Below the pieces are notes generated by a model, which had not been told where the DNA came from, made no database searches, and saw only the letters and a program-made list of their open reading frames with translations. Below are positions 25,903-54,139 of a stretch of DNA of 64,000 bases, in pieces (within the stretch, counting starts at the first letter, position 1; the number at the start of each line of letters is the position of its first letter). The stretch is from Massilibacteroides vaginae (GTDB taxonomy: Bacteria > Bacteroidota > Bacteroidia > Bacteroidales > Tannerellaceae), in contig NZ_FXDJ01000006.1 in the NCBI RefSeq assembly GCF_900178525.1, forward strand, positions 1 through 64,000, given 5' to 3'. Position numbers and translations under genes: made by a program.

Positions 25903-26022
25903 ATAAAGTATATTTTCTTTTTTCCATAGCTGTAGTAAAGTTTTTCCACAACTGTGGTAAAGTTTTTCTATAGCTGTAGAAAGCTTTTTCCATATATATA
26001 GAAAAAGAAAAATATACTTTAT
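25903..26022. repeat. 22-nt iterated element with terminal inverted repeats (ribD / pilin junction)
   Basis: Four 22-nt units at 25921-25942, 25943-25964, 25965-25986 and 25987-26008. Each starts TTTC and has a near-palindromic core: CCATAGCTGTAG, CCACAACTGTGG, CTATAGCTGTAG, CCATATATATAG. The array is bracketed by inverted repeats (ATAAAGTATATTTT at 25903 and its complement ending at 26022). It lies between two converging genes, 42 bp after ribD and 66 bp after the pilin stop, and may serve as a two-way terminator. Confidence 0.8.
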
Positions 26023-35941: not shown

Positions 35942-36244
35942 ATTGACCCTTCCGGGGATAAATTTTAGCCTATTTACACCAATCTGATAATCAAGCCGTT
36001 AGATACACCGAAAAACATAAAGGTTATTTTTGAAAATATAAAGGATATATTTTCAAAAATAACCTTTATGTTTTTATAAAGATAGTAATATAAAAATCGC
36101 TTGTAAAAATCACGCTGTTTATAGGGCTTCCAACTTACCCATTCACTTCGTATTTATTTCCCTTTTGAAACTACATTTTTTCCTGTCATCTCATAATCCG
36201 TATTCAGTCCCGCTTTTTCCGGCTTGGGTAAATTTTAACCCAAC
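35942..36244. other. Spacer holding the reversed repeat copy B
   Basis: 303 bp with the 22-nt iterated element at 35985-36096 and no gene. Confidence 0.6.
35985..36096 (-). repeat. 22-nt iterated intergenic element, copy B (perfect palindrome)
   Basis: Same family as copies A and C but in the opposite direction. On the minus strand it starts TTTTTATATTACTATC and ends TGATTATCA. Unlike A and C, the left unit is turned round, giving a perfect 29-bp inverted repeat (36011-36039 with 36047-36075) around a 7-nt loop. It starts 44 bp after the stop of the His/Asp-rich gene. Confidence 0.85.
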
Positions 36245-46087: not shown

Positions 46088-46201
46088 TTTTTTACATTAC
46101 TATATAAAAAAAAATATATCCTTTATTTTTCAAAATATATCCTTTATTTTTCGAAAAATAACCTTTATGTTTTTATCAAGATACAATACATTGATTATCA
46201 A
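46088..46201 (+). repeat. 22-nt iterated intergenic element, copy C
   Basis: Nearly identical to copy A: TTTTTTACATTACTATAT, two units with ATATCCTTTATTTTTC, one with AACCTTTATGTTTTT, then a 30-nt tail with TGATTATCA. It is 35 bp after the stop of the last pilus gene and may act as the operon end. Confidence 0.85.
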
Positions 46202-51818: not shown

Positions 51819-53105
51819 TTACAAAGTCTTTACTTTCAGGTTGCGCCAAAGAACTTTGATACCTCCTCCATCGTGTATCTGAAGGGCGATACGGCCTTTT
51901 CCGGCTCCGATCTTAGCGTCAGTAAGATTTACCATTTCCTGATCGTTCAACCAAGTAGTAACATTATCTCCCTGAACTTTAATACGCATGGTGTTCCAGT
52001 CTTTTACTTTCAGGATAGTTTCTTTTTCATCGGGTATTTGCTCCAACCAGCCACGTCCGTATGATTCGTAAATACCACCTGTATCATGTCCTTTTGGTGC
52101 TACTTCTACCTGCCAGCCGTTCACCTTCACTCCTTCTTCAATAAAAGAACGGATAAAGACACCGGAGTTACCGTCGGCTTCTTGTTTAAACTCAACAGTC
52201 AGGTCAAAATCATCGTAATAATCACGGGTAGCCAAGTAACCATATTGCTTATCTGGACCGCTTTCACAGATCAACAAACCATCTTTTACATACCAAAGTT
52301 CGGTTCCATAAGCTTCCCAACCGGTCAGGTCTACACCATTAAACAGATTAATGTCTTTCGGTTTGCGTGGCAATTCCTTTATCTTAATATTACGGAAAGA
52401 AGCCGGGTAGCCATGATCCTGCAAACAAAGAACGCCTTTCTGAGCCAATCCATATTCGGGCGCATTTTCCCATTTACCGCTATTTTTGCGTGCATGCCAA
52501 TCGTCTGTCCATGCTTCGAATTCAAGTATTTTTTCACCGTTCAGCCAATGTTCTACATGGCCATTGTCAAAAACGATTTTAGAATTATTCCATTTTCCTT
52601 GCGGATTAACTTTCATTTTTGATTTATCAGGCAAGTACATAGCATAATCTACGCCTAATTTTTGCCATTCTTCCAATGGTTCCGGAAAGTTAGGCTCGTC
52701 AATAAGTTGATATTCCGGTCCTGTTACATAAGGAACGGCGAATTGTGGGCGTTCTACTACGTGATATAACATACCACTATTGCCACCTTTAGACAATTTC
52801 CAATCCCACGACAATTCGAAATTTCCGTATTCTTTATCAGTAACTATGTATCCACTGGCGTCGCTACCATCGCCTTTCGCCTGTATACATCCGTCTACTA
52901 CATGCCAAGGTTGCGTAAGCGTGGTTCCATTATAGTCTTTCCAGCCGTTCAGCGTAGTTCCGTCAAATAGTAATTGCCAGCCTGCTGCCTCTTCTTCCGG
53001 AGTTAATACATTGTGCTGAGTCGTATCACACGAAGTCAGCACACAAAAAACTGAGCAGGAGAGAAATAGTCCAGCCAATGATCTTGTAATTGTTGTTGCT
53101 TTCAT
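51819..53105 (-). CDS. DUF1080 lipoprotein with two domains
   Basis: A 428-aa lipoprotein (Cys26 in VLTSC). Two DUF1080 (3-keto-disaccharide hydrolase) domains of about 190 residues each: GWQLLFDGTTLNGWKDYNGT ... (1) and INLFNGVDLTGWEAYGTELW ... (2). Each ends with a concanavalin-like strand pattern (IVFDNGHVEHWLNGEKILEF; MRIKVQGDNVTTWLNDQEMV). DUF1080 proteins act on sugars outside the cell, and some hydrolyse 3-keto-glycosides. The substrate here is unknown. No SusC/SusD pair is near, so it is not part of a polysaccharide-utilisation locus in this window. Confidence 0.85.
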   Translation of the reverse strand: MKATTITRSLAGLFLSCSVFCVLTSCDTTQHNVLTPEEEAAGWQLLFDGTTLNGWKDYNGTTLTQPWHVVDGCIQAKGDGSDASGYIVTDKEYGNFELSWDWKLSKGGNSGMLYHVVERPQFAVPYVTGPEYQLIDEPNFPEPLEEWQKLGVDYAMYLPDKSKMKVNPQGKWNNSKIVFDNGHVEHWLNGEKILEFEAWTDDWHARKNSGKWENAPEYGLAQKGVLCLQDHGYPASFRNIKIKELPRKPKDINLFNGVDLTGWEAYGTELWYVKDGLLICESGPDKQYGYLATRDYYDDFDLTVEFKQEADGNSGVFIRSFIEEGVKVNGWQVEVAPKGHDTGGIYESYGRGWLEQIPDEKETILKVKDWNTMRIKVQGDNVTTWLNDQEMVNLTDAKIGAGKGRIALQIHDGGGIKVLWRNLKVKTL

Positions 53106-53136
53106 TATAGATATGTGTTTAAAATAGAAGACACAA

Positions 53137-53144
53137 CAAAGATA
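53137..53144 (-). promoter_or_regulatory. -7 element of the DUF1080 gene
   Basis: TATCTTTG on the minus strand, 32 bp before the start. Good -7 match, no -33 TTTG. Confidence 0.5.
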
Positions 53145-53208
53145 GTAATATTAATCTATCTTAACACTATGAAGTCTTTTGATTTTCTATACACAAAGGT
53201 CGGAATTA

Positions 53209-53304
53209 AATTTTGAGGCGCCTCAAAAGACAAAAGCACGGCCGTCAAAAGATAAAAGCACGGCCGTCAAAAAACAAAAGCAGGAGCCTCAAAATTAAAA
53301 AAGG
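53209..53304. repeat. 22-nt iterated element with palindromic cores
   Basis: Units of 22 nt at 53217-53238, 53239-53260, 53261-53282 and a diverged fourth at 53283-53304. Each begins with a 6-bp core (GGCGCC, CGGCCG, CGGCCG, GGAGCC) followed by TCAAAAGACAAAAGCA or a close variant. Terminal inverted repeats AATTTTGAGGC (53209-53219) and GCCTCAAAATT (53286-53296). It lies 43 bp after the M48 gene stop and upstream of the DUF1080 gene. Confidence 0.85.
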
Positions 53305-53338
53305 CTGTATAACGGTACAGTTTCGATACGGTAATAAG

Positions 53339-54037
53339 TTAAATTGTATGGTATTTTTTCAGTTCCTGACGAAGTGCTTTCGATTGATTTTCCGTAACAG
53401 CATCCATCAATTTCCAGAAGCGTTCGTTATGACTCATTTCTTTGGTGTGGCACAATTCATGTAAAAGCACATAGTCGATCAGATGATCAGGCAGCAGCAT
53501 CAATGATCTTGAAAGGCTTATGGATTTCCGGGCATTGCAACTGCCCCAGCTTGTTTTACTTTTCGAGACTCGAACGCCGGTATAGGTAAATTTGTTTCGA
53601 ACGGCCAGATTGCGCAGTCGCCATGGCAAAACCAGTTTAGCCACGTGAAACAAAGCCCTTCCAAGTAAATCATACAGTATTTCCTGAACATGTTCATCCG
53701 AAAAATCAGTCTGAGACGGACAAGCAATATGCAGCATACCTTGTTCCAGTTTCATATAAAAGCCGCTTCGTTCTGTACAGAAAATATGCAGCCGGAATGT
53801 ATTCGTTTGCAAAACCGTAGATTCATTTAATTGCTCACGGGCAGGTCGCTTTTGCAAAGCCTTGATCAGTTGCTCCCGCTTCTCTTCAATAAAGGCAAGC
53901 ATCTGTTTCTCTTCTCCCTGTTCAGGCATAACAGCTTCAATCTTGCCATTCGCTATCTTCAGTGTATAACGAGTTGCTTTCGCACTCTTTCGAAGCGCTA
54001 TCACCCCTAAGTCCTTGTCTATAATTTCTCTTTTCAT
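53339..54037 (-). CDS. YgjP-like M48-type metallopeptidase
   Basis: A 232-aa protein of the YgjP/DUF45 group (M48). The zinc motif is LLHELCHTKEMSHNERFWKLMD: H-E-x-x-H followed by a Glu/Asp-containing helix. The N-terminal part (RKSAKATRYTLKIANGKIEA) and the SWGSCNARKSISLSRSLMLL strand are typical. There is no signal peptide, so cytoplasmic. The start at 54037 (MKREIIDKDLGV) is preferred to the 25-codon extension. Function in the family is unknown; it has been linked to restriction systems, with no such gene nearby. Confidence 0.85.
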   Translation of the reverse strand: MKREIIDKDLGVIALRKSAKATRYTLKIANGKIEAVMPEQGEEKQMLAFIEEKREQLIKALQKRPAREQLNESTVLQTNTFRLHIFCTERSGFYMKLEQGMLHIACPSQTDFSDEHVQEILYDLLGRALFHVAKLVLPWRLRNLAVRNKFTYTGVRVSKSKTSWGSCNARKSISLSRSLMLLPDHLIDYVLLHELCHTKEMSHNERFWKLMDAVTENQSKALRQELKKYHTI

Positions 54038-54090
54038 TCCTAAGGCAAAAGTAATATAATAGTGCAAACAATTAATACATCGGAAATCCC

Positions 54091-54098
54091 TATCTTTG
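54091..54098 (+). promoter_or_regulatory. -7 element of gpmI
   Basis: TATCTTTG followed by CGG, 41 bp before the gpmI start. Strong -7 match; no clear TTTG upstream. Confidence 0.5.
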
Positions 54099-54139
54099 CG
54101 GCTATTATACAAATTACAACTAAAATAGATATTTGAATT

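Follow-up and report, generated by a model that had tools for sequence, protein, structure and literature searches.

An 88-bp dispersed repeat with four dyad boxes at constant 22-bp spacing in a Bacteroidales genome

BrickBuilt, the nearest described relative in design of the element analysed here, is an intergenic and species-restricted MITE of Porphyromonas gingivalis; its 19 copies are built of head-to-tail 23-nt units, from 1 to about 23 in number, and have leader and tail segments and IS5-family-like terminal inverted repeats (GAGACC...) (PMC4596501). In the literature on tandem or palindromic repeats in Bacteroidales, only the BrickBuilt work was found to be relevant. REP/BIME repeats with their RAYT transposases are a second point of comparison, being short intergenic palindromes in either orientation with a species-dependent sequence, as here (PMC3733652).

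The window (the whole stretch of 64,000 nucleotides that was analysed, from a genome of 3.71 Mb denoted G000) contains at 53209–53296 an 88-bp element that resembles BrickBuilt in several respects: both are dispersed, intergenic and species-restricted, consist of tandem units without spacers (22 versus 23 nt) and occur in the order Bacteroidales. The differences are that the 88-bp element has no leader or tail, exactly four boxes, arms that flip and a constant spacing in 12 G000 copies; its ends, AATTTTGA/TCAAAATT, are not IS5-like on visual comparison with the table of PMC4596501, and it shows no target-site duplication. Because leader and tail, IS5-type ends and a duplication are lacking, we file it as an element that works like a BrickBuilt/BIME-type repeat, and not as a member. 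It differs from REP/BIME systems in that G000 has no RAYT and the boxes no GTAG/CGTC tag, and in its four palindromes, exact helical spacing and fixed length. The Tn7 TnsB sites and the Mu ends are repeated transposase sites of about 22 bp, three to four in number; site number and length are similar, but the sites of the present element are palindromic and stand alone, no transposase gene having been seen next to them. Iteron and operator arrays are bound cooperatively by dimers at two-turn spacing and occur at one origin or promoter, whereas the present element is dispersed, at a dozen copies per genome, and its protein is putative. Repeats are normally recognised by their sequence; here the conserved feature is the spacing.

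Anatomy of the element and its copies

The element comprises four 6-bp palindromic or near-palindromic cores with centres 22 bp apart and three 16-nt arms, and inverted half-arms close both ends. The features of the locus are listed below; the gene calls are crude, being the longest open reading frames.

53209..53296, no strand: whole 88-bp element with four boxes, three arms and inverted half-arm ends
53209..53216, no strand: left terminal half-arm AATTTTGA, which the right end repeats in inverted form
53217..53222, no strand: core 1, GGCGCC, palindrome, dyad centre 53219.5
53223..53238, forward strand: arm 1, TCAAAAGACAAAAGCA
53239..53244, no strand: core 2, CGGCCG, palindrome, dyad centre 53241.5
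53245..53260, forward strand: arm 2, TCAAAAGATAAAAGCA
53261..53266, no strand: core 3, CGGCCG, palindrome, dyad centre 53263.5
53267..53282, forward strand: arm 3, TCAAAAAACAAAAGCA
53283..53288, no strand: core 4, GGAGCC, near-palindrome, dyad centre 53285.5
53289..53296, no strand: right terminal half-arm TCAAAATT
53339..54112, reverse strand: neighbour gene, YgjP/SprT-like metallopeptidase; stop codon 42 bp from the element
51819..53105, reverse strand: neighbour gene, 3-keto-disaccharide hydrolase (PF06439); start 103 bp from the element

The first-pass annotation had described an array of 22-nt period with palindromic 6-bp cores, framed by 11-bp inverted repeats. The period was recovered as a tandem array at 53223–53294 with a TRF score of 107 and copy spacings of 22 and 22, compared to a maximum of 76 for arrays of any period in five 800-kb Markov controls of intergenic DNA; the window array is well above chance. 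The frame is an exact 11-bp inverted repeat (AATTTTGAGGC, 53209–53219, and GCCTCAAAATT, 53286–53296). The cores, which form the variable portion of the 22-nt unit, are perfect palindromes in three of the four cases, while the last, GGAGCC, pairs at 2/3 positions. The consensus of a box is A n G n / n C n T, usually with a 6-bp palindrome, and the element ends are TTTTGA ... TCAAAA. The neighbouring metallopeptidase is 65% identical to a Massilibacteroides protein, a genus that NCBI places in Porphyromonadaceae.

The array does not stand alone: it has six close and five diverged copies in the same genome. Six further copies were obtained by blastn against the whole 3.71-Mb genome, giving seven with that of the window (family C); these were also recovered by a motif scan, without manual placement. 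The second subfamily of five diverged copies was reached through a weak match and has different arms (e.g. TCAACAAACAAAACAA) and the cores AGCGCT and AGAGCT. The layout of four cores, three arms and 88 bp was found in 12/12 G000 copies of both subfamilies, and no base was gained or lost between the boxes in any of them, despite strong divergence of the arms between the subfamilies. The arm orientation is uniform in five family C copies and mixed in the L004 and L006 copies, with the spacing constant throughout. The first core of the copy upstream of nnrD, GGCTCT, is typical of other subfamilies.

All family C copies sit between genes, with a gene start at a distance of 26–104 bp from each of the seven; four of the six outside the window lie in divergent gaps without an adjacent stop. 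This share of divergent gaps (four of seven, versus 60/224 available gaps) is not a significant excess. Adjoining genes encode thymidylate synthase, aldose epimerase, rhamnosidases, PAP2, nnrD and choloylglycine hydrolase, with no common pathway. Two of the twelve elements, one per subfamily, are immediately upstream of genes for HU-HIG (PF18291) DNA-binding proteins (L002 1660–2262 and L206 812–1438). In the seven family C copies no conserved sequence was found outside the 88 bp that could serve as leader or tail, and no target-site duplication, the longest flanking repeats being 3–7 nt versus 8 nt for mismatched flank pairs. A terminator scan gave no terminator-like site at 53000–53500, and an Rfam search gave nothing meaningful. 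Predicted RNA folding energies of the copies ranged from −14.6 to −53.5 kcal/mol, depending on the arm orientation; a common RNA fold is not supported by these predictions.

Dyad symmetry and the shared 21–23-bp period

Symmetry was counted around the box centres of 14 elements (56 boxes); the second-subfamily and sister-species elements were excised by hand from the matches and set in a 16 + 6 register by eye before counting. Complementarity across the centre was 96% at ±2, 98% at ±4 and 70% at ±3. The mean over ±8 positions was 0.56 at the box centres and 0.15–0.29 at all 21 other phases, and core pairing was 118/168, versus 66±6 in shuffles (maximum 86). The clear dyad signal came from this box-centred counting; the palindromicity test on TRF consensus units, averaged over all 21–23-bp arrays of the genome, was weakly above shuffles. 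The pattern A-n-G-n-n-C-n-T repeated four times occurs six times at a spacing of 22 in 800 kb, each time in the 88-bp element, and at the other spacings of 15–30 not once in the same 800 kb; five consecutive occurrences were not found there either. The spacing is kept while the sequence changes quickly: the twelve G000 copies and the sister-species relatives hold four palindromes 22 bp apart as the letters change, and the far commoner family A holds 21 bp in every interval. By drift alone some length changes between the boxes would be expected; there are none in G000, for which a need for helical phase would be the simplest reason.

The period is shared well beyond the element. In the 800 kb of G000 that were read directly (searches covered the remainder), 76 of the 90 arrays with a period of 15–40 have one of 21–23, which equals 95 per Mb; the corresponding densities are 5 per Mb in E. 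coli K-12 (200 kb) and 3.8 per Mb in the Markov control. The number of units is tight, about 3 copies in 43/64 arrays, and most of the 21–23-bp arrays belong to family A.

Family A accounts for 37 arrays in the 800 kb; pattern matches number 287 in the whole G000 genome, 55 in the sister species (G001) and 0 in a third species (G002) and 58 other genomes. It has three near-palindromic boxes AAAAATAAAGGATATTTTT in either orientation, whose centres are 21 bp apart in 76/76 intervals; this value was derived from the motif offsets, which are 21 for the ++ and −− pairs, 23 for +− and 19 for −+. Across 31 copies, box 1 shows the same sequence differences from boxes 2 and 3. Flanking boxes are centred 33 bp upstream (TTGATAATCAA) and 21.5 bp downstream (ATATAGTAAT), with spacers that are not conserved in sequence; family A, but not family C, has conserved flanks similar to the BrickBuilt leader and tail. 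One copy (G000 contig C4, near 528482) lies in an insertion of roughly 210 bp relative to G002 L127, where two convergent genes are about 13 bp apart without a family A insertion.

Family B consists of 22-bp units framed by inverted family A boxes, and the box ATAAAGGATAT is common to both; by this framing, families A and B are not wholly unrelated. At 25919–26004 in the window, family B has three to four 22-bp units with the interchangeable half-cores ATAT, ACAG and ACAA. The third species, which is without family A, combines a TTGAAAATCAA-type box with different unit cores (CATAGGTATG, GATCCCGAAG), in most cases spaced at 22 bp; at G002 L137 13766, TTGATTTTCAA/TTGAAAATCAA boxes stand on either side of an array of GATCCCGAAG boxes, i.e. 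the family A frame around other cores. Other genera of the bacterial family contain 21–22-bp arrays of quite different sequence, such as TTAGAGGTACCTCTAA palindromes 22 bp apart in G014. The samples from G002 and the other genera were small, at most 40 kb per genome. Within G000, contig C4 is dense in 21–23-bp units of the TGTCAACCCGACCACCC type, together with 40–46-bp units containing GATGAGATGCTTCGACAGGCTCAGCATGACA, at about 476.5–493.4 kb and 566.4–568.9 kb.

These data bear on the proposal of the first-pass annotation that a period shared by unrelated sequences points to one mechanism rather than to common descent. The shared period is borne out by the 76/90 arrays at 21–23, and by those of two sister species and other genera; the broad spread of unit lengths that would have spoken against the proposal was not found. 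As to the mechanism, two helical turns are the best account of the 21–22-bp period shared across families and of the constant length; the alternative offered, a common replicating enzyme, was not found in a search directed at a REP-type Y1 transposase, which G000 lacks. The opposition to common descent has to be given up: the copies of a family are related and have a fixed unit number, and families A and B share a box. Common period and common descent are not alternatives, as each family stems from one element while the period is common to the families. A distance of 43 bp to a stop codon, taken as a rule, did not hold either; it is 42 bp here and ranged from −4 to 970 bp for 40 intergenic 21–23-bp arrays.

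Relatives in other species and the age of the insertions

The family C query matched G000 only, among 124 genomes of its bacterial family. A third variant with the arm TCGGCAAACTGAACCA gave about eight matches in G001, two of which are full elements, again with 4 cores, 3 arms and 88 bp. Other G001 copies are shortened to two or three boxes, and a 3-nt insertion occurs in one; in G001 the spacing is not absolute. Two of the G001 loci, L187 and L189 (contigs C41 and C19, near the contig ends), share 65 identical bases of the element in different flanks, which is either a recent copy or an assembly effect. G002 contained one two-box remnant.

The L006 copy lies between two rhamnosidase genes, and both relatives are colinear with G000 on both sides. 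At this position the G002 genes are separated by a short gap that contains no element, i.e. an empty site, and G001 has a shortened element of the G001 arm type, with one arm resembling the G000 arms. An 88-bp element also precedes nnrD in G000 (at 106 bp) and in G001 (at about 170 bp), the arms differing between the two species; in G002 none was observed ahead of this gene. The genes flanking the empty sites are ∼70–77% identical, a divergence at which the exact ends of the element are not readable. The two neighbours of the window's copy are on different contigs in both relatives, which makes its own empty site unreadable; the flanks of the remaining family C copies are not conserved on both sides or uninformative. 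By a rough estimate, two positions in common, given about 12 copies in one genome and 8 in the other, would exceed what random insertion into a few thousand gaps gives. The shared nnrD and L006 positions therefore suggest that some positions are old and inherited and that recent transposition is not the sole process. They also suggest that the sequence is homogenised within a species, through conversion between copies or selection by a changing binding protein, in addition to new insertions. The genomes represent one per species, a sampling in which recent movement is not visible.

Nothing pointed to a phage or plasmid origin: the exact unit pattern had no match in the genome contigs and IMG/VR, and blastn against plasmid and phage collections was equally negative. 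The search for a mobilising gene was directed at Y1 transposases. No Y1/RAYT transposase (PF01797) was detected in G000 at E≤0.001, a search that was positive in control genomes, and G001 has one such protein.

A putative binding protein and competing explanations

We favour, at a probability of roughly one half, that the element is a dispersed, non-autonomous MITE/BIME-like repeat carrying four helically phased sites for a putative dimeric DNA-binding protein. The four boxes would each bind a homodimer, and with 22 bp being about two helical turns, the four dimers would be aligned on one face of the helix. The element may have been spread and homogenised within the species, through copying by a trans-acting enzyme and/or conversion between copies; the sequences of boxes and arms would turn over quickly, and the geometry that binding requires would stay. 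Families A (21 bp) and B (22 bp) would follow the same design. What is observed of such a phased array are dyad sites at a fixed two-turn spacing, retained as the sequence diverges. If a protein underlies the spacing, a single DNA bait could retrieve it, and its sites could be read directly from the genome; this would likewise be relevant to the P. gingivalis BrickBuilt minisatellites and to the many 21–23-bp arrays of this bacterial family. A wider and distinctly more speculative possibility is a new class across a Bacteroidales family, defined by geometry: three to five dyad boxes at 21–22 bp, with sequences that change in concert per species and track a dimeric DNA-binding protein that evolves fast and is either chromosome-organising or selfish.

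A classical MITE, in which an insertion sequence would have left a non-autonomous remnant with short inverted ends (AATTTTGAGGC) and inner units that are passengers, as proposed for BrickBuilt, is unlikely, albeit not strongly so. The inverted ends, the 12 dispersed intergenic copies, the empty site in G002 for one family C copy and the insertion of about 210 bp that holds one family A copy and is absent from G002 would all fit, but there is no target-site duplication, the ends are unlike the IS5-type ends reported for BrickBuilt (PMC4596501), and no parent insertion sequence was found in the transposase search, which was for Y1. Passengers, furthermore, are not expected to hold an exact helical spacing while sequence identity goes.

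Decidedly less probable is a REP/BIME system, in which short, clustered palindromes are mobilised by a Y1 (RAYT) transposase and act mainly as transcribed hairpins. It would account for short intergenic palindromes in both orientations with a species-restricted sequence, and REPs do cluster in head and tail orientations (PMC3733652). However, the exact spacing and the fixed count of four boxes are foreign to REPs, the wide range of folding energies argues against a common RNA fold, and none of the seven family C copies has a GTAG or CGTC tag next to its boxes. RAYT-driven mobility is not supported, PF01797 being absent from G000.

We consider it similarly improbable that the copies are operator arrays of a dispersed regulon, with four transcription-factor sites ahead of target genes. 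The short distance to a gene start in all seven family C copies is what such a regulon predicts, and the element that precedes nnrD in G000 as well as in G001 and the two copies immediately upstream of HU-HIG genes would agree with it; in addition, the second subfamily has AAGCGCTT-type cores, which may resemble operators of common dimeric regulators. Against this, the adjoining genes have no common pathway, the L006 site is empty in G002, and the excess of divergent gaps is not significant.

Independent minisatellites that arose by slippage at each site, their period being favoured by replication or by structure, would explain why the period clusters at 21–22 bp across families, but are very improbable. 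Distant copies agree in unit number, which is tight overall, and in family A (31 copies) also in the position-specific sequence of the units, which contradicts local slippage and shows that the arrays were inherited as wholes. Intrinsic terminators at gene 3′ ends would suit the stop codon 42 bp from the window array, but can practically be dismissed, as the window has no terminator-like site at the element, most family copies are away from 3′ ends, and the gap types of family A (22 tandem, 7 convergent and 8 divergent, versus 130, 34 and 60 available) match the general mix. Family A itself is an element of roughly 230 bp with copies in the window at 1336–1398, 36010–36061 and 46111–46173; it is more abundant than the 88-bp element and perhaps more interesting.
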